Shown in pieces: positions 1,329-26,174 of a stretch of DNA of 64,000 bases. Made by a program: the position numbers and the translations under genes. Origin of the DNA: Schizochytrium sp. TIO01. Its lineage: Eukaryota; Sar; Bigyra; Thraustochytrida; Thraustochytriidae. Position 1 is the first letter of the stretch. Every line of letters starts with the position of its first letter. The notes beneath the pieces are model-generated. The model made no database searches. It was not told the DNA's origin and worked only from the letters and a program-made list of their open reading frames with translations. Where the stretch lies: NCBI GenBank assembly GCA_004764695.1, contig SMSO01000032.1, positions 2,258,501 through 2,322,500 on the forward strand, written 5' to 3'.

Positions 1329-3198
1329 ATGGCGCAGGTTGCACCTGATGTAGCGACAAAGAGCCTCATCGGTGATGCACTAGATAGCTCTCAGAATGCA
1401 ACAAAGATTGAAGCCTCTCGACAAACAGCTGATGGCCTTCTGTTTGAGCTAGAATTGCGTAATCTCGATCGCTTTGTAAACATTAAAGCGGGCACATGCC
1501 GCTCAGCCCAAAAGCAAATTCTTCATGGATTTAATGCTCGATTTTCATCTGGTGAGCTTTGCGCTATCATGGGAGGTAGTGGCGGTGGAAAGAGCTCTTT
1601 GCTTTCTGAAATTTCTCAGGGAAATCCAAATATGTATCTGAATGGACACGCCTTACCAACAAAGTACAAAAAGATGGTTTGTGTAATTCCACAAGCGGAT
1701 ATCCTCTTTCCTGCCTTGACGCCTCGCCAAGCACTTAGATATAGTGCGATGCTGCGTTTACCAGCCAAAACTAATGCATCAAAAATCGAAGGTGTAGTTG
1801 ATCGAATTATAAAAGATCTTGGACTCACAAAGTGTAAAGATACACCAGTTGGAGATGATAATGTACGAGGTGTAAGTGGAGGAGAACGCAAGCGGGTTTC
1901 AATTGGAACCGAGCTTGTAGTGAATCCCAAAATTCTGCTGGTCGATGAGCCTTCGTCTGGTCTCGATTCTACTACTGCAGAAAGCGTAGTGGCAGTTTTA
2001 AGCAGGCTTGCCAAAGAAAAGAATCAAATGGTGATTTGCACAATTCATCAGCCCAGCTACAAGTTATTTTCAACTTTTGATAAGCTACTAATGCTTCATC
2101 ATGGACGTGTAGTCTACCATGGACAAACGAATGAGAGGTTACATAGCTATTTTTCATCTATTGGATTTAAAGCCCCTGAATATGAGAATCCTCTGGACTA
2201 TTATATGCGCATTTTGCAGGAAAGAGACGAGGAGGACCAAGAATTTTTTGCGAATAAGTGGGCTGCGCTTGATGATGATCAACACAAAGAGATTGATACC
2301 GAGAGACATCCTGATTCAGTGAACAGCAAGCCTGTTTCAGATGAAGAAATGCAGAAAATAACAGCAAAAAATCCATGGTTGCACCAGTATAAGACGCTTG
2401 CACGACGCTTTGCAGATGATACTCTGCGAGATAAGCAGAAGTTTGCGCAGGCCTTAGGTATGAAACTTGGAGTTGCCATAATGATGGGAATCGTTTTTAT
2501 TGACCAAGCCCGCTCAGATGATTACGCGACAACTTTTACACGAACATCGCCTTTATTCTTTCTTACTATCTCTGGTGTTCTTGATACAGCCTTTGCTGCA
2601 ATTCTTCTAATTCCTCTTATTCGCCCGTTGCTTGTTCGAGAGTATCGTAATGGGGCATACTCAATCTCAGCATTGTTCATGGCTCAAATTACGAATAGCC
2701 TTCTTTTCGACACTATCTCGAGTTTATCATATGCTGTGGCAGTTCCTATGGTCGGACTTTTCCCATCTGCTGGCCAGTTTCTCACCTATTTGCTCACCAT
2801 GTCGCTGGTATCAGCATTTGGATCTGGTCTAGGATTGCTCCTAGGCAGCACTAGCAAAGATGTTCAAGATGCCCAAAACAAGATGATTCCAGTTATTATG
2901 CCTCTGTTGCTCTTTTCTGGATTTCTCATTCCTCTCGATCAAATCCCTAAAGTGTTCAGGTTTCTGTACTATCTGAGCCCCTTCCAGTGGGCTCTAAGTG
3001 CTTTGCTTATTACAGAATTCGATGGAGTTGAGTTCTCAGACAAAAGTACTGGCACAAAATACCTGGAATAGTCTTGGTTTGCATCCCGAGGACATCTGGA
3101 GAAATTTGTGCATCCTTGCAGGGCTGGTTATTGCAATGTTAATTTTCGCATTCGTTCTTGTGACATTGTCAGTTCAAAGGCAAGCAAAGCAAACATAA
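1329..3198 (+). CDS. ABCG (WHITE-type) half-transporter A, C-terminus in +1 frame
   Basis: ATP-binding cassette subfamily G half-transporter, expected to dimerise in a membrane and export lipids, sterols or xenobiotics; the substrate cannot be told. The order is nucleotide-binding domain then membrane domain, as in WHITE/ABCG proteins. Visible motifs are Walker A GGSGGGKS at residues 82-89, the Q-loop near 121, signature VSGGERKR at 182-189, Walker B ILLVDEP at 202-208 and switch His240. About six membrane helices follow from residue 375. The uninterrupted frame ends at a TAG (3069-3071) after 580 codons. Coding similarity to paralogue B then continues in the +1 frame from 3070 to a TAA at 3196-3198, restoring the family C-terminus (HPEDIW..., ending RQAKQT). 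One extra T at 3069 would explain it: a real mutation, a sequencing error, or +1 recoding. The ATG at 1329 is the first in frame. The gene uses more A/T-ending codons than paralogue B. Confidence 0.85.
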
Positions 3199-3406
3199 AA
3201 CTTCACAAGCTATATAATTAGTAATTTGTTACAGAAAAAAATAAGAAATTCTGAAAGAATGTTACATTCCCTAATTATTTGGGTTTTCTTTCCTTGCAGA
3301 GCTCCAATGATCTTCTCCACAAGTTGCATAGAACGTTCGGAACACTATGCAGGGGTCATGGAAAGTCAACTTTCATATACCTGTGTTGACATTGCTCTTT
3401 CAGAGT

Positions 3407-8519: not shown

Positions 8520-10526
8520 ATGATCAACAACGGTGTTAGTCCAGAGCAAGACAACAAAGTCGATGACTCGCGCGATACGCCATCCTCGTCAACCTCGCAG
8601 TCCAGTGAGATGGACAATAGTCCGAATGAAAGCAACAGTAACAACAAGACCATGCCGCTTCCCTCGGAATCTGCTACGAGCTCTGAGGATATCAAAACTG
8701 AGGTGTTCGATGTCGAGGCCGGTCCTCCGGTCATGCGCCATGGAACGAGCTACTTTCCTGAGTTCGAGATGGAGCTTCGTGAATTAAACAGAGATGTCAA
8801 GATCAAAGCAGGTCTCTGTAAATCAGGAGAAAAACGCATTCTGCACAGTGTGAGCGCGCGTTTTGTGTCAGGTGAATTGTGTGCTCTGATGGGCCCCAGT
8901 GGTGCCGGCAAGTCATCACTGCTCTCTACTTTGCAGAATGGCAACGATGCAATGTTCTTGAATGGACAGCCGTTACCCAAACAATACTCACAGATGGTTT
9001 GTGTTATTCCTCAGGCTGACATCCTCTTCCCGGCTCTCACGCCGCGCCAGGCACTTCGCTACGCAGCGGTCCTCAAGCTTCCGGAGAACACCTCCAAAGA
9101 GGAGGTTGAAGAAGTGGTAGACCGTTTAATCAAGGACCTTAACCTCACCAAGTGTAAGGACACCCCTGTAGGTGACGAGAATCGCCGTGGTGTAAGTGGT
9201 GGTGAGCGCAAGCGTGTTTCTATTGGCACCGAGCTTGTCGTGAACCCGAGCATTTTGCTTGTCGACGAGCCCTCGTCTGGTCTTGACTCGACTACTGCTG
9301 AGGGTGTCGTGGATTTACTGCGTCGACTCTGTAAAGAGAACGGCCAGATGGTGATCTGCACAATCCACCAGCCTAGCTACAAGCTTTTTACATCTTTTGA
9401 CAAGCTTCTTATGCTCCACCACGGTCGGGTTGTATACAATGGACTGGCTCATGAACACCTTCACAGCTACTTCAACTCCATTGGCTTCAAAGCTCCTGAA
9501 TTTGAGAACCCCTTAGATTATTATATGCGCGAACTCCAGGCTCGTGATGGAACTGATACTCAATTCTTTGCAAACAAGTGGTTAGAGCTTGACAACTCCA
9601 AACGTGGTGCAATGGATACTCGTCGCCACATCAAGGATAGCGCTGCCGGTGTCTCAACAGAGCAGTTGGAAAGAATCACTGCTAAGAACTCATGGTGGCA
9701 TCAATTTAGCACACTGATTCGCCGCTTCTTTGAAGATACCGTCCGTGATAAGGGCAAGTTTCTTCAAATGCTTGGTATGAAGCTCGCCATTGCTGTCTTG
9801 CTTGGTATTGTTTTTATCAACCAGGCTCGCAAAGACTCGGTGAGCAGTGCTTTCACATCAACCTCACCGCTCTTCTTTTTGGTTATTTCTGCTGTCTTCG
9901 ATACCGCTTTTGCATCAATTCTTGTCATTCCTCTCACTCGTCCATTGCTCGTTCGCGAGTATCGCAACGGTGCATACTGTGTTTCTGCATTATACCTTGC
10001 TCAGGTTCTGAATAATCTTCTCTTTGATATGCTTAGTAGTGTGGCATACTCTGTAGCTGTTCCGATTGTTGGACTATACCCATCAGCACGTCAGTACTTT
10101 CTCTACCTCTTTGGCACTATGCTCATCACTGCTTTTGGTTCAGCTCTTGGGCTTATGCTTGGTAGCACAAGTGCAAATGTTCAGGAGGCTCAGAGTAAGA
10201 TGATTCCCGTCGTCATGCCTCTTTTGCTATTCTGAGGTTTCCTTATTCCTTACTCTGAGATCCCGTTCTACTTTACTTGGCTCTACTACCTCAGTCCATT
10301 CCAATATGCTCTTAGTGGGCTGCTCATCGTTGAGTTCGAAGACCGCACGCTCTACTCCGACGATGGCACGGCAATGACAGGTACAGAGTACCTTGAATCC
10401 CAGGAGCTCAACCCGGATGAGCTTTGGCAGAAATTTGGCATTCTTATTGCTCTTGATGCCTTTATCTACATCGTTGCATTCATCAGCATCAGTATGTCAA
10501 TTCGTAAGCAAGCAAAGAACACCTAA
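8520..10526 (+). CDS. ABCG (WHITE-type) half-transporter B, with one in-frame TGA
   Basis: Close paralogue of the ABCG gene at 1329, with the same NBD-then-membrane order and a longer Ser/Asn-rich N-terminus (residues 1-75). Motifs are Walker A GPSGAGKS at 125-132, signature VSGGERKR at 225-232, Walker B ILLVDEP at 245-251 and switch His283. The frame is open for 571 codons, then meets TGA at 10233-10235 inside the conserved segment PLLLF-[stop]-GFLIP, where paralogue A has Ser (TCT). The same frame then continues for 96 conserved codons (LYYLSPFQ..., ending IRKQAKNT) to TAA at 10524-10526, giving a 668-position product if the TGA is read through. Without that part the protein loses its last membrane helices. 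A TCA-to-TGA point change, a sequencing error or stop readthrough are all possible. Third positions are richer in G/C than in paralogue A. It is probably a membrane exporter, like its paralogue. Confidence 0.85.
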
Positions 10527-13480: not shown

Positions 13481-15181
13481 TTAATCTGATTTCATTTCGC
13501 TTCCGAAGTTCATTGTTGGCGAGTGCATATACAAGCCATCTCGAGCAACAAAAATCTTGTTCAATTCTTTGGTAAGGACACTAGCAGATGCAGGGGTCAC
13601 TGAAGAAACACCACGCATATCTAAGAGATCAAGAGTCACAGAACCACTAGGTCGTTTTGCACACGCCTTAGCAATCTCTTCTACGGTCTGATTATCAAAC
13701 TGCTCACAAGATGCCAGGGACAGTTCCGAGAGCAGAGTGAGACGCCGGCATAGATCAACAACACCACGTTGAGTAATTGATATACAATGAGTAAGATTCA
13801 GAGAGCGCAAATGTTCAAGTGAATTTCCCAGTGCATCAAGACCCTCATCTGTAATGCTCATCATGTATCGGAGATTCAGGTGCTCAAGCTTGAGTAAGCG
13901 ACGAGCAAGGACTTCAATTGTTCGGTCTGTGATGAGATGGCAGTTCATCAAATTGAGGTTCACAAGGTTTGTGCATGCGCACACGGTAGGAATAAGAGCT
14001 GCATCGTCCAGCCCAAAGCATTCAGAGAGGTTCAATGAAGCCAGTTTCGGGCATCTTCCACCCATAGGTGCAAGACCTTGACCGGTGAGGCGATGCATAG
14101 ACCACAGACTTAACGTCTCAATCCGAGCTCCACAGCCCTCGAGCAAAGAGGACACAGCATCATCAGTAACAAGATGGAGGTCCTTAGCATGCAACACGCG
14201 TAAACGCTGTAAAGAGGAACCGACCTTGCTTATGCTTTTGTCAGTGAGTTTAACACAGTCACTTACATTCAGAATCTCAAGGTTCTTGCATCTCTCTGTA
14301 ACATTGATTACGCATGTATCAGTAAGCGCCTCTAGACGTTTCAGGCTCAGTGAGACAAGTTCAGGGCAGCTCTCCCCAATTGTAGACAGACTAGTCTCAG
14401 TAAGCAATGTACAAGCACTCAAGTCAAGCCATCGAAGCTGTGGGTTTCCCTTCAGAGCTGGCGATAAAACTTCGTCTGTCATTTGTGAGTATGCACCAAG
14501 GTCGAGTAGAACTAAGTGTGACATAGATCGAGAAAAGACCATATGAAAGAAGTCAAGTGGCATGTTCAGGTAACACGGTACACCCTCGCAATCTGGGACA
14601 CCTACAGAGAATCTTTCAGCAAGACCGTTGACTGTGAGGAAGTCTCTCCACGAACGACAAACAGACATACTGCGTAGACGGTCTGGATGTAGAGGAAGAA
14701 ACGAAAGAATCAAGCGTAGAACATCATCTGTCTCTAACGCCCGGGGCGTTCCAGTAGCGGCGCAGCTTGTTTCGTCCGAGAGGTCATCTGGACAACACCC
14801 GAAACGACGCACCATTCGGAAAGGCCCATTGTATCTTCGTGCATCAATAAATACCGTCGACCCCTCAGGAATTACAGATACCTTCGTCTCTCCATGCAAT
14901 GTGGTGTAGTAAATTTTGAGAACTTTATTCTCATCTGGAATCGGGTCGCCAAAGAGTGCATTGAAGCTCGCCTCGATGCTAAGAACATCACCTTGAGGGG
15001 TGTGATCTACAAGGTCACGCACCTGGGTTGTTACAAATCGCAAGGTTTCTGGCCTCTTTATATCTGCGTCAAGAGTGCCATACGTAGCCTTGCGAATATC
15101 AAGCCTCCCACGGGGAACAGTTCCCTGGTTACTAAACCAGCGTCTCGCCCTCTCTAGATCGGCCATGTCCTTGCAATCCAT
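13481..15181 (-). CDS. F-box / leucine-rich-repeat protein (FBXL type)
   Basis: Putative substrate-recognition subunit of an SCF (SKP1-cullin-F-box) ubiquitin ligase, 566 residues, single exon. Residues ~150-190 match an F-box (L-x-L-I-L-S-F-L-P then R-x-x-S-V-C-R-S-W-R-D-F). From ~220 to ~540 there are about a dozen cysteine-containing LRRs of ~26 residues of the AMN1/FBXL type, with repeated C-x-x-L-x-x-L-x-L-x-x-C-x-x-L-T-D. The first ~145 residues are unusual: a segment with a hydrophobic/charged pattern that I do not recognise. The start is the first ATG in frame, at 15181. It is divergent from the DOT1-like gene with a shared 593-bp upstream region. The substrate is unknown. Confidence 0.85.
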   Translation of the reverse strand: MDCKDMADLERARRWFSNQGTVPRGRLDIRKATYGTLDADIKRPETLRFVTTQVRDLVDHTPQGDVLSIEASFNALFGDPIPDENKVLKIYYTTLHGETKVSVIPEGSTVFIDARRYNGPFRMVRRFGCCPDDLSDETSCAATGTPRALETDDVLRLILSFLPLHPDRLRSMSVCRSWRDFLTVNGLAERFSVGVPDCEGVPCYLNMPLDFFHMVFSRSMSHLVLLDLGAYSQMTDEVLSPALKGNPQLRWLDLSACTLLTETSLSTIGESCPELVSLSLKRLEALTDTCVINVTERCKNLEILNVSDCVKLTDKSISKVGSSLQRLRVLHAKDLHLVTDDAVSSLLEGCGARIETLSLWSMHRLTGQGLAPMGGRCPKLASLNLSECFGLDDAALIPTVCACTNLVNLNLMNCHLITDRTIEVLARRLLKLEHLNLRYMMSITDEGLDALGNSLEHLRSLNLTHCISITQRGVVDLCRRLTLLSELSLASCEQFDNQTVEEIAKACAKRPSGSVTLDLLDMRGVSSVTPASASVLTKELNKIFVARDGLYMHSPTMNFGSEMKSD

Positions 15182-15774: not shown

Positions 15775-17247
15775 ATGGAGCGTGTTCGCGAAGCTGTCGC
15801 AAAGCAAGAGCTCAATCAGGAGGCCATCGGCAACGTTTTGCAGGAAGGTGCCGAGCTTTCGCTTCTTTATGGAGAAACTCCCTTAGAGAGTGTCGAGGGC
15901 GCACTTAAGATTATCAAAGACGCCCCATCTGCATTTGGGGCTCAAGGCAAAGCTCTCCTGGGGGATGGCTCCGAGGTCTTCGTGGATGTTGGCTCTGGTC
16001 GTGGACATGTGGTTCTTGCCGCTGCAGCCTCCATGAAATGGTCCAGGTGTATTGGCATTGAGCTGGAGCAAGCCCATGTCGATGAAGCCAACAAGGCCCT
16101 TGAGACACTTCGCGCAGACTCTGAAGGTGAGGCATCGCAGCCTCTTGCCACCCCAACTTCTGCGATCCAATTCATTTGTGGCGATGCTCTCAACAACGAG
16201 GAGGCTCGCGAGGCTCTCAAAAGTGCTAAGATTGTCTACTGCTTTGATTTGGCCTTTCCCACTCCTGTTCGCCAGCAGCTCGCGGCCCTATTTGCCGAAA
16301 TTCTCCCTGAAAACTGCATCCTCGTAAGCGGTCACTCTGATCCCTTCCCGAGCGCAGCTTTTGCTCCAATGATGCCAGTGCAGACTATCAAGATGGAGTG
16401 GGGCCCTGCGCCGATGCGAGTGTATCGCAAGGGCCCTGGAGGCTACGACCTCTGGCAAGAACAGCACTATGGCCAACTCCAGGCTGCAGGCGTACCAGCA
16501 AGCCTCCATGAAGCGGCTTACCGTAAGATCACCGAGCTCGACTTTGACATTGGCTCCGCCGTACAACTGGCAAGGGCCTCGGAAGATTCTTCAGATCTTT
16601 TTGTTGTATCCACTAAGGACCTCAAAGCAGACGAGGATGTCTTTGTATTGGACCACGCATGGACATTCGCATCTCGTGCAGATGCCGCTGCTTCGCTCGC
16701 TAATGTTCCCGGTCTCTTGGACCGTTTGTGGGATCTTTGCGGGGAGCAAACTGCTGGAATCGAGAAACCCAGTGCCGAGGTTTTGGCTTCGAACCCGGAG
16801 GAGGCTGCTAAGCGCGTGCTCAGTGCAGCTGGCAACCTCTTGGCAAGTTATGTGATTCGCCATGGAGATAAGGAAGATGACATTACCACTGTGTACTATC
16901 TTTTGGATGAGGTTGGATCTCGCATTCGTCGTCGTCGTAGCCCCGTTGCATCTCGCCTTCAGCCCACAGAGGCCAACTTTCGCGTTGTTCCTATCTACTC
17001 CTTTGACTATCGCATGGCGTTTCAGCTGGCATGGCCGGTGACCAGCGTAGAGACTGGCAATGTCCTTGTGGCCGACCATGAGCAAGGTTGGGATCTCAAC
17101 CAGGAGGTAGAGGTGATTGACTCAAGCAAGGAGACTTCCGACTCTTTGCCTGAAATGAAGGAGTTTGCCGCGCAGGCTGCTCTTCGCCAAATGATGGACC
17201 AATCCAGGCAAGAGCAGCAGCAGCAGCAGCAGCAGCAAGAGGAGTAA
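15775..17247 (+). CDS. DOT1-like methyltransferase fused to a TTLL12-type N-terminal domain
   Basis: 490 residues, single exon. Residues ~30-225 look like a DOT1-type SAM-dependent methyltransferase: motif I VDVGSGRGHVV (70-80), acidic Glu96 for the SAM ribose, GDAL (136-139), FDLAF (157-161) where DOT1 has its NNFAF-like catalytic loop, then ILVSGHSDPF (182-191). DOT1 methylates histone H3 Lys79, but the substrate here is unproven. Residues ~226-455 resemble the N-terminal, SET-like half of tubulin-tyrosine-ligase-like protein 12: AGVP near 238, LDHAW (292-296), VPGLLDR (311-317) and LLDEVGSRI (376-384). The ATP-grasp ligase half of TTLL12 is absent. The C-terminus ends in a CAG-encoded eight-Gln tract. 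The first in-frame ATG is used. It converges on the thioesterase gene. The methyltransferase fold is fairly certain; the DOT1 and TTLL12 identities are from memory of the families. Confidence 0.75.
   Translation: MERVREAVAKQELNQEAIGNVLQEGAELSLLYGETPLESVEGALKIIKDAPSAFGAQGKALLGDGSEVFVDVGSGRGHVVLAAAASMKWSRCIGIELEQAHVDEANKALETLRADSEGEASQPLATPTSAIQFICGDALNNEEAREALKSAKIVYCFDLAFPTPVRQQLAALFAEILPENCILVSGHSDPFPSAAFAPMMPVQTIKMEWGPAPMRVYRKGPGGYDLWQEQHYGQLQAAGVPASLHEAAYRKITELDFDIGSAVQLARASEDSSDLFVVSTKDLKADEDVFVLDHAWTFASRADAAASLANVPGLLDRLWDLCGEQTAGIEKPSAEVLASNPEEAAKRVLSAAGNLLASYVIRHGDKEDDITTVYYLLDEVGSRIRRRRSPVASRLQPTEANFRVVPIYSFDYRMAFQLAWPVTSVETGNVLVADHEQGWDLNQEVEVIDSSKETSDSLPEMKEFAAQAALRQMMDQSRQEQQQQQQQQEE
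17215..17238 (+). repeat. In-frame (CAG)7CAA tract encoding poly-Gln
   Basis: Seven CAG codons and one CAA near the 3' end of the DOT1/TTLL12-like gene encode residues 481-488. It is a potentially length-variable trinucleotide repeat. Confidence 0.9.
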
Positions 17248-17718: not shown

Positions 17719-18681
17719 TTAGGGTCCAATGGCCGCGTTGACGACCTGAGGTATTTTCACAAGGTTCCGCTTGGTGTCATGGAGGAACACGATCTCGAAC
17801 TCCGATTCGATCAGGACCTGGTTATCTGCCACGCGGATTAAAGACTGCGAGATGCTGACGACGTACTCGGAGGGATCAGCCTTACGGTTGCGTTTCGTGA
17901 CGATTCGCAGGTCCTCATAGGGGCGAGCTCCATACTTGTAGGTGACCTTGGCTCTGCGCACGACAGGAACTGCTTGCTCCTGGTTCTTGGCCTCGAGAAG
18001 AACCTCAGGGCTAAGATATTGGGTGCGCGCACGCTCGAACCAAAAGTAGTAGTTTGGGTGGAAAGCAATGCCGGTGAAGTCAGTGTCAGCCATGTGGATG
18101 TGGTAATCAAAGTTAGCGACCTTGGCAGAGGCCTCGGCGACGGCATCGCGTGGAGCTGGTTTCTTGCGCATGGGAGGGCGCTTCTTGGTACCAGGCTTAT
18201 CGAGGAAGGAAAAGTTCTTCTTGCACTCGTCGAAGAAGCCCATAAGCTCTACAACAAATGAAGGTGCCTTGACGAGCTGGAACGTCTTGCTGACGACAAC
18301 CATCTCCACGAACCCAGCAACAAGCAGGGTATTGTCACTCTTGCGCCAGATACTCTGATCAAAATGCACGCGGAATGGACCATCGAGAAAGGGAATTGTT
18401 CGCACCTCGAGATCGTCTCCATAACGACCAGGGGACTTGAACAGAAGGTCAGAGCGAGTTACCACGAAGGAGTTTCCGTTGTATGCGTAAAGGTCTGCAA
18501 GAAACTGTACAGAGATCACACTCTCACGGCCTCGCTCGAACCAAGTCAAGTAGTTGCGATAGAAGACAATGCCGAGAGTGTCCGTGTCCTCCCTGTAGAC
18601 AGTGACGTCGAGTGCGTTGTAACCCGTCTCACGGGCCGCTTTGAGAGCCTCATAGTCGAGGCGAGGTTCTGGGGCGCTCAT
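17719..18681 (-). CDS. Tandem hotdog-fold (4HBT/YbgC-like) acyl-CoA thioesterase
   Basis: About 320 residues, single exon, built from two hotdog domains of the 4-hydroxybenzoyl-CoA/YbgC thioesterase class, which hydrolyse acyl-CoA or acyl-ACP thioesters. Domain 1 carries EDTDTLGIVFYRNYLTWFER (residues 31-50), whose Asp34 sits where YbgC-type enzymes have the catalytic Asp. Domain 2 carries ADTDFTGIAFHPNY (about 197-210) followed by WFERAR, with Asp near 200 in the same place. A basic, Pro-rich linker (about 162-180) joins them. Both catalytic acids appear intact, so both sites may be active. I see no signal peptide or peroxisomal tail, so a cytosolic location is inferred. Codon use is G/C-rich at third positions, suggesting good expression. 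The substrate is unknown; fatty acyl-CoA is the obvious guess. Confidence 0.85.
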   Translation of the reverse strand: MSAPEPRLDYEALKAARETGYNALDVTVYREDTDTLGIVFYRNYLTWFERGRESVISVQFLADLYAYNGNSFVVTRSDLLFKSPGRYGDDLEVRTIPFLDGPFRVHFDQSIWRKSDNTLLVAGFVEMVVVSKTFQLVKAPSFVVELMGFFDECKKNFSFLDKPGTKKRPPMRKKPAPRDAVAEASAKVANFDYHIHMADTDFTGIAFHPNYYFWFERARTQYLSPEVLLEAKNQEQAVPVVRRAKVTYKYGARPYEDLRIVTKRNRKADPSEYVVSISQSLIRVADNQVLIESEFEIVFLHDTKRNLVKIPQVVNAAIGP

Positions 18682-20624: not shown

Positions 20625-23600
20625 TTATGCGCGGGAATCTTCATCTTCGTCATCGAAGAGGCCATGCTTGGGTCCAACCTCATAATGTGACATAGACAAT
20701 TCACGCTTTTGAATGCGACGACGACGCCACACAACAGCTCCAACAGCAACTACAACGGCGGCTACAAGAGCCACTACCACAACCGCAATACCGGCACTAC
20801 TTAAACCCCCACTACTGCCATCTTCGTCAGGGTCAGACGAGGCAAAGGAAGCCTTAAGAGTTGAAACGAGATTTGTGATTGCACTAACATCACACTCTTC
20901 AACACTGTTTGAGCCACACTGCTCAATCACATTGTTGAAGGTGGTACGTGTACTTGAGCGAGCAAAGAGAGTTTGAAATTCTCCTGCTGAAACCTTGCTG
21001 GACTCAATTCTGAAGTGGATTGCTAAATCAGAATCAGACTCAGCGTATGAAGTAAAGTTAAAAAGGTTCACATCACATTTGAGAGTGCCCATCTTGTGTT
21101 TGGATTTTGTCCTGTAAACAGTGCGCTGTACAACGAAACAAATACCAGCAAGAAAATCTTCAGCGTCATGCTCAGATGCTACGTACGGTACATCGAAGCG
21201 AAGAATGTAGTAGTCGTAGTTGAGAGAAGTGGTTACGCCAGTCACATTAAGCGTGTCTGAATAATCTGAGAAGGCGCTACTTGAGGCGAATGCCTCCCGA
21301 AGAACCTCCATAGTATTTCCATAATAATTCGCTGTATCGTCTCGTGCAGACTCGGCACTAGAAGCATCGGTATACATGAGGTATGAGGTAATGTAAAACT
21401 CAGTCATGCCTGGCGTAAGTTCACGACGCGTCATCCTCGGTGTAAGAGCACCACTTGGATTCAAAGCAGTCTTACGCGAAGCTGCGGCGGCAAATCCACG
21501 ACGTGACAAAGCGCGACGCGGGACCGTGCTCGAATCCTCGACAGAAGTAATCAGCTTGACATTGCTTCCGTCCTCTTCCTCGTCTAGCCGACGCGTCCAA
21601 CCAAACGACTGAGTTGTAGGAGTCTGGGTGGGAGCAGATGTAGGTGACTTTGTCGGGCTACGGGTGGGGGCTTGTGTCGGGCTACGGGTGGGGGCTTGTG
21701 TCGGGCTATGTGTGGGGGCTTGTGTCGGGCTATGGGTTGGGGCTTGTGTCGGGCTACGGGTGGGGGATTTGGTTGGTCTTGAGGTGGGGGCCTTTGTTGG
21801 GCTTCCGGAAGGCGATCTGGTCGGAGTCTCAGTTGGGGTAAGTGTAGGCGCCATAGTAGGCAGAAGTGTTGGGCTTCCGGAAGGCGATCTGGTCGGCGTC
21901 TCAGTTGGCGTAAGTGTCGGCGCTATAGTAGGCAGAAGCGTCGGGGCTGTTGTTGGGGAGCTCGGGCAAGCTGCAGCACCACGGTACGAACCAGACGCAA
22001 ACGAAACATCATTGTCACATGCAAAGATAAAGCAGTTGCCGCCTGCGATCACCCAAGCATCACAGCCATCAAATTGTGCACAGACGTGCGCACAAACCGC
22101 GTCAAGATCATCAGTATCATCTGTAGTAAGATCGCATGCCGCAGTCATATCAATATAGTTGCCGTTACCGTCGCTGGTCTGAAGGATATTGTCACTGCTA
22201 AAGTCACAAGAGTAACAAAAGTCTGATGCATTGAGATCGCTGGCAGAAAACGTGATATCGTGCGCGCACACGGATTCATCGATGACAATACTTGTCTGGA
22301 CCTCAGGCGTATCATCTCCAGCAGGACATACGGACTGTACACAAGTGGTAGTTCCTGGGCAGGCTGCAGCGCCGCGGTATGAACCAGATGTAAACGAGGC
22401 CTCATCATTGTCACATGCAAAGATGAAGCAGTTGCCGCCTGCGATCACCCAAGCATCACAGCCATCAAATTGAGCACAGACGTGCGCACATACCGCGTCA
22501 AGGTCATCAGTATCATCTGTAGTAAGATCGCATGCCGCAGTCATATCAATATAGTTGCCGTTACCGTCGCTGGTCTGAAGGATATTGTCACTGCTAAAGT
22601 CACAAGAGTAACAAAAGTCTGATGCATTGAGATCACTGGCAGAAAACGTGATATCGTGCGCGCACACGGATTCATCGATGACAATACTTGTCTGGACCTC
22701 AGGCGTATCATCTCCAGCAGGACATACGGACTGTACACAAGTGGTAGTTCCTGGGCAGGCTGCAGCGCCGCGGTACGAACCAGATGTAAACGAGGCCTCA
22801 TCATTGTCACATGCAAAGATGAAGCAGTTGCCGCCTGCGATCACCCAAGCATCACAGCCATCAAATTGTGCACAGACGTGCGCACATACCGCGTCAAGAT
22901 CATCAGTATCATCTGTAGTAAGATCGCATGCCGCAGTCATATCAATATAGTTGCCGTTACCGTCGCTGGTCTGAAGGATATTGTCACTGCTAAAGTCACA
23001 AGAGTAACAAAAGTCTGATGCATTGAGATCGCTGGCAGAAAACGTGATATCGTGCGCGCACACGGTCTCATTGATGACAATACTTGTCTGGACTTCAGGC
23101 GTATCATCTCCAGCAGGACATACGGACTGTACACAAGTGGTAGTTCCTGGGCAGGCTGCAGCACCGCGGTATGAACCAGACGTAAACGAGGCCTCATCAT
23201 TGTCACATGCAAAGATGAAGCAGTTGCCGCCTGCGATCACCCAAGCATCACAGCCATCAAATTGAGCACAGACGTGCGCACATACCGCGTCAAGGTCATC
23301 AGTATCATCTGTAGTAAGATCGCATGCCGCAGTCATATCAATATAGTTGCCGTTACCGTCGCTGGTCTGAAGGATATTGTCACTGCTAAAGTCACAAGAG
23401 TAACAAAAGTCTGATGCATTGAGATCACTGGCAGAGAACATGATGTCATGGGCGCACACGGTCTCATTGATGACGATACTTGTCTGCACCTCCGGTGTTT
23501 CAACATCTGAAGGACAAACTGACTGGACACAACCCGAAGTTGAGATTGGGCTGTCTGTTGAAGTGGGAAAAGGGGATGCTGTAGGGACCAAAGTGGGCAT

Positions 23601-26174
23601 TTGAGACGGAGCAGGAGTAGCCACACCACGTGCAACGCGGCAAACTCCTCCACCTACACTAGATCCGTCAACAAAAGTAGCTGTGTCATTTTCACAAGAG
23701 TAAAGAAAACAATCCCCACCCTTAAGAATCCACGCATCGCAATCTGCATCAAGTAAGAGAAAGCAAATCTGTGCACATGCCTCCTCAAGACCAGTAGTAT
23801 CAGAATCAGCAAGATCACAGGAATCACCAAGAGAAACATAATAGCCATCACCACTTTCACGTATAGATTCTTCGCCGGTGAAATCACAGTCAGCACACAT
23901 ACTGGAAGCATCGATATCACTAGAGGTAAACGTAATCTCTGTGGTGCAAACATCAGAATCTATGTCAACACCAGTTTCCATGGTGACATCCTCAGCGCAG
24001 TAGTCACTGCAGCTGTAGGCGGAAGGACTTGTAGTAACGCTGTTCACTTGTTGTGGAAGGCTGAAGGAAAGATCCATCGAGACTCCATCAATCCAATTGC
24101 ACTGCTCAACCACACCACATGAAGAGTCACGAGAGCATTGCTGAAATCGAATCGGGTGTGTGAAGAGAACTTCGTTTCCAATGTAAGGAACCTGGAGCTC
24201 CTGGTCACAGAGACCACGTGAAGCGGGGAAAGCAGCGTAGTCGGTCCAGGAATCGTCATCACCAGCAGTAGCTTGGTACTGAAGAGTAATGCCTTCCTGG
24301 CACGATGTGAGCGAGGTAGTGAGGTTTTCAAGGCTTGAGATACAGGTGGTAGTCTCGGCGCCGACATTATTTAGAAACTCAGCGACAATTTCACTGTATC
24401 CAAACTCATTGATTTCGTTGATGCACTTAGAAATGAGAGCATCAGAAGAGTAGGCTACTCGGCAAAATCCGTTGGTCACATCCAGCGCCTCAAAGTAATC
24501 CACGCAGGTTTCAGCATCAATGCTTGATTGTGCAAGCGAAGCGTAGTTCTTACAGAAGAAAGCAAAGCAGATTTGGACACTCTGATTAGTGGTGTAGCTT
24601 GTACAGATTGTACGTGCAAACTCACGAGCCTCATCCGTGTCATATACAATGCCCTTCGCTTTACATGCTGCCTCGATCTCACGATGCGCCTGAAGAGCAG
24701 CGATCTCGGTTTGAGAAGCATTGTTGCCAAGAAGACTGCTTGTGTAGCAAAACCCATCTAGGTTTGAGCGCGTGGTGTTCCAAGATTCAAGGGGCTCAAT
24801 AATTGCATCAATATTGATACGGTAGTTGCCGTATGTTTGCTTGCTCAAAACTTTATTAGCATCGCTTGGATCAACGGTTCCAGTGCATGCAATGCTTACT
24901 TGAATGTTAGTGGATCCATCAACAATATACCACACAACGTCGAAGGTCTCATTTGAGTCCTTTCGCACCCAGTTTGCGGTGTATGAGGGCCATGAGCTGG
25001 AGCCTTCAAGAGTCCATGAAGAGGAAAGACTAGTCTCTTCAATGCAACTGGTTGCGTCAAGGGAAAAATTAGCATCGGAAGTGTACATCATTGCCTCGCG
25101 AATGACACCACGTTCTTCCTGACGAACCCAGAATTCGAAGTCATCGGCTTTGTACATGAGGAGCCAGGAGGGCTCACCATCAGCTGCTGGCTGGCATTTC
25201 GATCCAGACTGCCAGGTGGACTCCCAGGTAGAGGGCTTCCACAGACAAGCAGCGCCATTCGTATCTTCGACACTTTTACAGGCGCTTTGTGTGATTTTAC
25301 AATTCTTAGTGGTTGTGTCACGGCCGTCACAAACACGCCACGAGGCCTCTGTGCCATTGAATGACACACAATTAGGATCTCCATAGCACGTGCACGTCTC
25401 GCAGCAGCCACCCGTGGCTCCTCCATCAGTGTATGTGAGCGAAGAGATAGTGAGAGATGCCTGGTCAGGGTTCTCGCTGAGTGCAAGGCAAGCCTGCGTC
25501 GGGTTCGTAAGGTCAGAGCAAACAGGAACTTGAATACCAGCAACACGGCACGCCGCGCCTTCAAGGTTCACAATTTCACAGTCCTCCACAGGAGCAGTGT
25601 CTCGTGCTGGGCAGCAAGGGTCCATTGAACTAAAAGTAATATCGATTTCGTCCGAATTTGTGGGCAGCACTGTGATCATGTTATTGGCTGTACCACAAAG
25701 CGGTGCATAGCCGCAAGTTTCTGCGTCTACAGAGTCCGAGTCCACGGAGGTTGCTGTTTGCGCTGCCATGACCTCAGCTAGGATAGAATCCACTGCGTCC
25801 ATTTGATCATCGCTTAAAATATAGGTTGGCATTTCTAGGCGCAGCGTCATTGCCAGTACGCCAGTATCAGCGGTTGTGCTCACAGGGGCTGCTGTCGGCA
25901 TGGATGCGGGAGACGAGATACTACATTGTCCAGAGCTTTCGTGGTACGTGCATGGGCTCACACATAGCCAAGCATCATCGTCATAAGTGCTGCACGAGAC
26001 ACATTCTGAGCTCTGATCTCCACTACTGTCAGCAGTCACTTGCCAGAGGCATCCATCGGCATCATTTACGCATGTTTTCTGTGAGGTTTGTTCATCGCAG
26101 GCGCCTTGCACCGCAGCTATACTCAATAAAAGCACCGCCACACGCATTGCCAGCATGCGTCCAGAAAGCTCCAT
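20625..26174 (-). CDS. Large Cys-rich PAN/Apple-like repeat surface protein with Pro-Thr stalk and C-terminal TM
   Basis: About 1849 residues, single exon. The first ATG in frame is at 26174; it gives a short N-region then a hydrophobic signal peptide (about residues 10-24, ending VQGA). The ectodomain is Cys-rich with many N-glycosylation sites. Residues ~745-850 hold one diverged copy, and ~880-1400 four near-identical 132-residue copies, of a module with eight or more Cys and a C-x-x-x-C...CDAW...GG-x-C-x-x-x-C pattern resembling PAN/Apple domains. A Pro-Thr-rich stalk (S/A-P-T repeats, about 1404-1520) follows, then a possible SEA-like segment, one TM helix (~1790-1815: AVVVVALVAAVVVAVGAVVW), and a short cytoplasmic tail starting RRRR and ending in acidic residues. 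I infer a type I cell-surface protein for adhesion or carbohydrate/protein binding. No orthologue is recognised. Confidence 0.8.
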   Translation of the reverse strand: MELSGRMLAMRVAVLLLSIAAVQGACDEQTSQKTCVNDADGCLWQVTADSSGDQSSECVSCSTYDDDAWLCVSPCTYHESSGQCSISSPASMPTAAPVSTTADTGVLAMTLRLEMPTYILSDDQMDAVDSILAEVMAAQTATSVDSDSVDAETCGYAPLCGTANNMITVLPTNSDEIDITFSSMDPCCPARDTAPVEDCEIVNLEGAACRVAGIQVPVCSDLTNPTQACLALSENPDQASLTISSLTYTDGGATGGCCETCTCYGDPNCVSFNGTEASWRVCDGRDTTTKNCKITQSACKSVEDTNGAACLWKPSTWESTWQSGSKCQPAADGEPSWLLMYKADDFEFWVRQEERGVIREAMMYTSDANFSLDATSCIEETSLSSSWTLEGSSSWPSYTANWVRKDSNETFDVVWYIVDGSTNIQVSIACTGTVDPSDANKVLSKQTYGNYRINIDAIIEPLESWNTTRSNLDGFCYTSSLLGNNASQTEIAALQAHREIEAACKAKGIVYDTDEAREFARTICTSYTTNQSVQICFAFFCKNYASLAQSSIDAETCVDYFEALDVTNGFCRVAYSSDALISKCINEINEFGYSEIVAEFLNNVGAETTTCISSLENLTTSLTSCQEGITLQYQATAGDDDSWTDYAAFPASRGLCDQELQVPYIGNEVLFTHPIRFQQCSRDSSCGVVEQCNWIDGVSMDLSFSLPQQVNSVTTSPSAYSCSDYCAEDVTMETGVDIDSDVCTTEITFTSSDIDASSMCADCDFTGEESIRESGDGYYVSLGDSCDLADSDTTGLEEACAQICFLLLDADCDAWILKGGDCFLYSCENDTATFVDGSSVGGGVCRVARGVATPAPSQMPTLVPTASPFPTSTDSPISTSGCVQSVCPSDVETPEVQTSIVINETVCAHDIMFSASDLNASDFCYSCDFSSDNILQTSDGNGNYIDMTAACDLTTDDTDDLDAVCAHVCAQFDGCDAWVIAGGNCFIFACDNDEASFTSGSYRGAAACPGTTTCVQSVCPAGDDTPEVQTSIVINETVCAHDITFSASDLNASDFCYSCDFSSDNILQTSDGNGNYIDMTAACDLTTDDTDDLDAVCAHVCAQFDGCDAWVIAGGNCFIFACDNDEASFTSGSYRGAAACPGTTTCVQSVCPAGDDTPEVQTSIVIDESVCAHDITFSASDLNASDFCYSCDFSSDNILQTSDGNGNYIDMTAACDLTTDDTDDLDAVCAHVCAQFDGCDAWVIAGGNCFIFACDNDEASFTSGSYRGAAACPGTTTCVQSVCPAGDDTPEVQTSIVIDESVCAHDITFSASDLNASDFCYSCDFSSDNILQTSDGNGNYIDMTAACDLTTDDTDDLDAVCAHVCAQFDGCDAWVIAGGNCFIFACDNDVSFASGSYRGAAACPSSPTTAPTLLPTIAPTLTPTETPTRSPSGSPTLLPTMAPTLTPTETPTRSPSGSPTKAPTSRPTKSPTRSPTQAPTHSPTQAPTHSPTQAPTRSPTQAPTRSPTKSPTSAPTQTPTTQSFGWTRRLDEEEDGSNVKLITSVEDSSTVPRRALSRRGFAAAASRKTALNPSGALTPRMTRRELTPGMTEFYITSYLMYTDASSAESARDDTANYYGNTMEVLREAFASSSAFSDYSDTLNVTGVTTSLNYDYYILRFDVPYVASEHDAEDFLAGICFVVQRTVYRTKSKHKMGTLKCDVNLFNFTSYAESDSDLAIHFRIESSKVSAGEFQTLFARSSTRTTFNNVIEQCGSNSVEECDVSAITNLVSTLKASFASSDPDEDGSSGGLSSAGIAVVVVALVAAVVVAVGAVVWRRRRIQKRELSMSHYEVGPKHGLFDDEDEDSRA
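21612..21960 (-). repeat. Pro-Thr stalk repeats (24-bp and 72-bp units)
   Basis: Within the surface-protein gene, a 24-bp unit encoding (S/A)PTQAPTR-type residues repeats about five times between roughly 21655 and 21775. A 72-bp unit is duplicated with starts at 21799 and 21871. They encode the extended, probably O-glycosylated stalk between the Cys-rich modules and the membrane. Confidence 0.85.
21965..23548 (-). repeat. Four 396-bp tandem coding repeats
   Basis: Identical landmarks recur at 22158, 22554, 22950 and 23346, exactly 396 bp (132 codons) apart, and sequence between them differs at only a few positions per unit. Each unit encodes one Cys-rich PAN/Apple-like module. The lowest-coordinate unit (closest to the stalk) is the most diverged at its distal end. 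A fifth, much older copy lies at about 23640-23960. Confidence 0.95.

Follow-up and report, generated by a model that had tools for sequence, protein, structure and literature searches.

Schizochytrium sp. TIO01 encodes, in a single gene, a DOT1-like methyltransferase joined to the SET-like half of TTLL12. TTLL12 (tubulin tyrosine ligase-like 12) consists of a SET-like half and a TTL-like half, neither with a firmly proven activity, and in this thraustochytrid it appears to be divided, since the sole SET-like TTLL12 domain found in the genome is that of the fusion and a TTLL12-type TTL domain is encoded by a gene of its own. Both the joining of the two domains in one gene and the split of TTLL12 are observed in one genome. 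Such a natural division of TTLL12, with its SET-like half fused to what is likely a SAM-dependent methyltransferase, is a clue to the partner of that half.

Two domains in one open reading frame

The fusion gene lies in the window, by which we mean the whole 64,000-nucleotide stretch of DNA analysed (GC about 45%); its features are collected in Table 1. An in-frame stop is found 13 codons 5' of the ATG, and each of the other five frames contains 4-24 stops over the same interval. The stretch holds no Ns and occurs once in the 64-Mb genome. GC by codon position is 0.67/0.44/0.54 in the N-terminal half, 0.70/0.41/0.50 in the linker and 0.65/0.45/0.52 in the SET-like half, values that are alike in all three. 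On either side, genes for an F-box/LRR protein (13481-15181) and a double-hotdog thioesterase (17719-18681) lie on the minus strand, opposite to the fusion. A Pfam scan matched TTL (PF03133) nowhere in the 490-aa frame, and no ATP-grasp ligase follows it, the next gene 3' being the thioesterase; the absence of the ligase that an earlier note had described is thus borne out.

Table 1 Features of the fusion gene, with residues of its product and positions in the window
Feature	Residues	Position	Strand	Basis or state
Fusion gene, intronless		15775..17247	+	490 codons/490 aa, ATG start; ORF list and Pfam
DOT1-like class I methyltransferase core	31-217 (~30-217)	15865..16425	+	Pfam DOT1 and PDB DOT1 matches; ends set by motifs X and VIII
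Motif X, LYGE (AdoMet lid; Glu essential in DOT1L/Dot1p)	31-34	15865..15876	+	Kept, Glu34; V to L change
Motif I, VDVGSGRG (AdoMet binding)	70-77	15982..16005	+	Kept; DVGSGRG 71-77, L to V change
Motif II, GIE (AdoMet ribose)	94-96	16054..16062	+	Kept
Motif III region, GDAL	136-139	16180..16191	+	Diverged from F(V/L); alignment to DOT1L
Motif IV, FDLAF	157-161	16243..16257	+	Diverged from NNF(L/A)F; Phe157 at DOT1L Asn241 position
Motif VIII-like, MEWG (putative Trp305 equivalent; VSWT in DOT1L)	207-210	16393..16404	+	Trp aligned by eye and in paralogue alignment
Linker	227-279	16453..16611	+	Weakly similar to N-terminus of human TTLL12 (~27-70)
TTLL12 SET-like domain, SET_TTL (PF25556)	280-438	16612..17088	+	Pfam and human TTLL12 alignment
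LDHAW block	292-296	16648..16662	+	Human TTLL12 alignment
LLDEVGSRI block	376-384	16900..16926	+	Human TTLL12 alignment
C-terminal tail, Gln-rich run at end	439-490	17089..17244	+	No family match

Both domains exceed the curated Pfam cut-offs. DOT1 (PF08123) matches residues 66-177 with an E value of 4.7e-12 and 46.3-48.5 bits (cut-off 23), and SET_TTL matches with an E value of 1e-15 and 58-60 bits (cut-off 25.6). This confirms the pairing of a DOT1-type with a TTLL12-type domain in a single frame that the earlier note had proposed from four motifs, all of which lie at the residues it gave. Scanned separately, as that note had suggested, each half gives the same or a better match to its named family, and neither of the two sequence results that the note had listed as refutations occurred.

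As a query for TTLL12 we used a sequence of 644 residues taken as the human protein. Checked against Pfam, it scores 334 bits for SET_TTL and 256 bits for TTL, and 6 of 6 motif positions published for human TTLL12 agree with it (PMC3520985). The fusion aligns to its residues 117-245 at 31% identity, scoring 69 bits (E 9e-17). The alignment score is 172, where shuffled sequences average 29.8 (sd 4.6) and 0 of 2,000 shuffles reach it; the SET_TTL match is therefore no chance resemblance. The fusion shares with TTLL12 the SET-like domain with its LDHAW, VPGLL and DE.GSRI blocks and may retain remnants of the region N-terminal to it; it differs in that a methyltransferase stands ahead of the SET-like half and in that TTL is absent from the protein and encoded by a separate gene. 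The resemblance of the linker to the TTLL12 N-terminus is suggestive only, as 20 of 2,000 shuffles reach its score, and is not relied on here. The canonical SET domain (PF00856) was not matched in the fusion in a Pfam scan to E 10, and a critical Asn is reported to be missing from the SET-like domain of human TTLL12 (PMC3520985).

A search of the openly available text of the literature turned up no account of a DOT1-TTLL12 pairing, in agreement with the earlier note, which knew of no protein with this pairing. Relatives of the fusion were not found in viral contigs, phages or prokaryote genomes. A single-sequence AlphaFold2 model of the fusion had a mean pLDDT of 40 and was discarded.

The TTL half of TTLL12 is a separate gene

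By profile search, SET_TTL was found once in the 64-Mb genome, in the fusion, in searches run one exon at a time, which may overlook weak matches such as a highly diverged second copy. When the N-terminal half of human TTLL12 was used as the query, the fusion was the only credible match in the genome. One possible second SET_TTL copy was a weak match (E 0.01) containing a stop, and was dropped.

The PF03133 profile identified about 45 TTL-domain genes in the genome. Among these, a TTLL12-type gene lies about 4.2 Mb from the fusion on the same contig (G000:C31:~6,472,900-6,474,300, minus strand). The match itself (G000:C31:6472960-6473826, minus) falls in an open frame of 462 codons, giving 459 aa from the first ATG; in the extracted locus (L044, G000:C31:6471000-6477500) this is the ORF at 1874-3262, minus. 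The protein aligns to residues 361-631 of human TTLL12, nearly the whole TTL domain, with 29% identity and 104 bits, compared with 73 bits for the next best of the genome's own TTL proteins. Its PDB matches to TTL, TTLL6, TTLL7 and TTLL11 are weaker, at 41 bits or less, these scores being from phmmer, a different program from that behind the 104 bits. It is sister to human TTLL12, with support of 100/99, in a maximum-likelihood tree built from 38 of the genome's TTL domains and from human TTLL12 as the one human TTLL. Three low-scoring TTL loci had been considered as TTLL12 candidates and were dropped once this better one was found.

In the separate TTL protein, Pfam matched TTL only and no SET_TTL, and no similarity to TTLL12 was found in its N-terminal part. 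An intact TTLL12, with SET_TTL and TTL in one gene, was not found in the genome. What is new here is twofold: the only SET_TTL found in the genome is that of the fusion, and the missing half of TTLL12 is a gene of its own. The separate protein also keeps a canonical-looking SRGI loop, with WIIKPASEARSRGIVVS at the place of the non-canonical SLDT of human TTLL12. Because this sequence is kept, the ligase site of the protein may be closer to an active one, and the protein may be an active ligase.

Some TTL frames of the genome carry two TTL domains (C33:2158937, C36:3284892 and C8:26804); the one on C8 is equalled in score by a twin at C30:1628655.

A DOT1-like methyltransferase with a probably changed substrate site

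The best single-sequence PDB match of the fusion is 8fjm, a DOT1-type H3K79-specific methyltransferase (E 1.4e-6). A profile built from the N-terminal half and two paralogues from the same genome (L004 and L007) matched PDB 9ne1, a compact DOT1-type protein, at 3.5e-24 and DOT1L at 2.4e-11, and with this profile the YGE motif falls inside the alignment. The Pfam DOT1 profile also matches 6 of 14 control genomes, above the cut-off in 1, and is thus not specific to H3K79 enzymes. The compact DOT1-like methyltransferases share with the fusion their size, a YGE well before motif I and a C-terminal WG strand; in contrast to the fusion, L004, L007 and 9ne1 are stand-alone proteins, and the motif IV sequence is peculiar to the fusion.

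Seven DOT1 motifs have been defined (PMC10951340), of which three (III, IV and VI) are altered in the fusion. Like DOT1 and DOT1L, it has motifs X, I and II and perhaps the Trp of motif VIII; unlike them, it has a diverged GDAL in motif III and FDLAF in motif IV, has lost motif VI (Gx6K), with ENCILVSGH at the aligned DOT1L position, and lacks the DOT1L-type N-terminal nucleosome-binding region, only 30 residues preceding motif X compared with ~134 in DOT1L. Motif IV is part of the substrate channel, and its divergence could mean that activity is altered or lost. Asn241 of DOT1L, which this motif contains, has been called essential in a review (PMC9207516), yet the N241A mutant of DOT1L still made H3K79me2 in vitro, and trypanosome DOT1 enzymes carry Ser or Ala in its place (PMC10951340). 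Since motifs X, I and II are kept, III, IV and VI have diverged and Asn241 can be replaced in some enzymes, this half is probably a SAM-binding methyltransferase with a changed substrate site.

Other DOT1 genes of the genome outscore the fusion (82 and 52 bits against 48), and two of these genes have a zinc-finger-like C-terminus. The two encode larger proteins of 699 aa (L003, G000:C34:4378678) and 531 aa (L005, G000:C32:1525564), whose C-terminal segment gives a weak Vps36-NZF-N match below the cut-off. Both are better candidates than the fusion for the true H3K79 enzyme and may carry a ubiquitin-binding finger.

Stramenopile DOT1 proteins with novel domain associations are also described in the expanded DOT1 families of brown algae, where TTL goes unmentioned in the main text and legends (PMC13076208). 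That a stramenopile DOT1 has gained a new partner is thus not unheard of in itself; what surprises is which partner it is and that TTLL12 is split to match.

Possible roles of the fusion

Within its family, TTLL12 has been described as both the most conserved and the most mysterious protein (PMC10889654). The human protein binds tubulin, chromatin components and eEF1A1, and showed neither histone methyltransferase nor tyrosine ligase activity in vitro (PMC3520985). More recently, a SAM-dependent methyltransferase signal was obtained for it with tubulin and none with histone H3; the SET part by itself had no activity, both activity and tubulin binding required the TTL part, and TTLL12 knock-out cells had lowered tubulin Arg methylation, a modification that SET enzymes rarely make (PMC10883266).

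We tentatively favour a reading in which the SET-like half of the divided TTLL12 docks a DOT1-like catalyst to the separate TTL half, with a substrate on the tubulin side, while giving it somewhat less than an even chance of being right. The DOT1-like half would be the catalyst. The SET-like half would be a non-catalytic dock that rebinds the TTL half, a role assigned to it because the human SET part alone shows no methyltransferase activity. The free-standing TTL protein would contribute tubulin binding, and the methyltransferase would thus be delivered to tubulin or a tubulin-bound factor. Catalysis, the reassembly of the two halves and the substrate are what we infer here. The earlier note had suggested that the N-terminal half of TTLL12 is a methyltransferase partner; that idea is strengthened by the failure to find an intact TTLL12 and by the separate TTL gene, while the interaction it presupposes belongs to the inferred part. 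Several points weigh against this docking model. The separate TTL protein, with its SRGI loop, may serve a function of its own; eEF1A1 and chromatin proteins are further binding partners of human TTLL12; the fusion is seen in one genome; and it might be incidental, given that DOT1 families in other stramenopiles pick up varied domains (PMC13076208).

The main alternative substrate to tubulin is eEF1A, and it is possible, if rather doubtful, that the same architecture and dock serve to methylate eEF1A or some other soluble partner of TTLL12. EEF1A1, which is itself known to be methylated, was recovered with human TTLL12 by co-immunoprecipitation and co-purification; the authors raised it as a possible substrate but found no methylation of it by TTLL12 in vitro (PMC3520985), and the tubulin signal was obtained by others (PMC10883266). 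The DOT1 profile and AdoMet motifs would suit a chromatin enzyme that methylates H3K79 or another histone residue, its SET-like half aiding chromatin binding, and histone H3 and HP1-gamma co-precipitate with human TTLL12, whose level affects H4K20me3 (PMC3520985). The diverged motifs III, IV and VI, the missing nucleosome-binding region, the higher-scoring DOT1 genes and the lack of histone methylation by TTLL12 in vitro (PMC3520985, PMC10883266) make this unlikely, and the earlier note's 'self-contained two-domain chromatin methyltransferase' finds no support: two catalytic domains are improbable when the human SET-like part methylates no histone in vitro.

It is also improbable that both domains are non-catalytic and form a SAM-sensing scaffold regulating the separate TTL protein. 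Such a role would fit the diverged motif IV and the description of human TTLL12 as an inactive enzyme homologue with a regulatory function (PMC3520985), but motifs I and II and the Glu of motif X are kept, and in trypanosome DOT1 enzymes the position of Asn241 can be taken by Ser or Ala (PMC10951340). A lineage-specific fusion whose halves have unrelated jobs, or one private to the strain, is very unlikely: the shuffling of domains reported for stramenopile DOT1 genes (PMC13076208) would allow it, but with no other SET_TTL found in the genome the domain is kept only in its fused form. Least of all do we expect an artefact, in which two genes were joined wrongly in the assembly or by read-through; this is made extremely improbable by the single open frame of even composition, which has no Ns, needs no intron and lies within a 9-Mb contig, and by the missing TTL half, itself a complete ORF 4.2 Mb away.

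The fusion turns a vague question about TTLL12 into direct ones, namely whether the products of the two genes bind each other and whether the fusion methylates tubulin, eEF1A or histones. The drop of tubulin Arg methylation in TTLL12 knock-outs, although SET domains rarely make this modification, could also become easier to explain. In its broadest and more doubtful form, the SET-like half of TTLL12 would across eukaryotes serve to dock a class I methyltransferase, the methyltransferase signal of TTLL12 would be due to a DOT1-like or PRMT-like protein that it recruits, and the pairing would be visible here because dock and partner were joined in one polypeptide when TTLL12 was split; we regard this extension as unlikely.

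Other features of the window and the genome

Two nearby ABC transporter genes of the same build, with an ATPase and an ABC-2 membrane domain, lie on the plus strand of the window at 1329-3071 and 8520-10235. The protein encoded at 17719-18681 (minus) carries tandem hotdog thioesterase domains, 4HBT and 4HBT_2. An intronless ORF of 1849 aa at 20625-26174 (minus) has as its sole Pfam match a weak PT disordered repeat. Elsewhere in the genome lies a gene for a PfaA-type polyunsaturated fatty acid synthase, which together with its frame neighbours scores 1157 bits (cut-off 1010).
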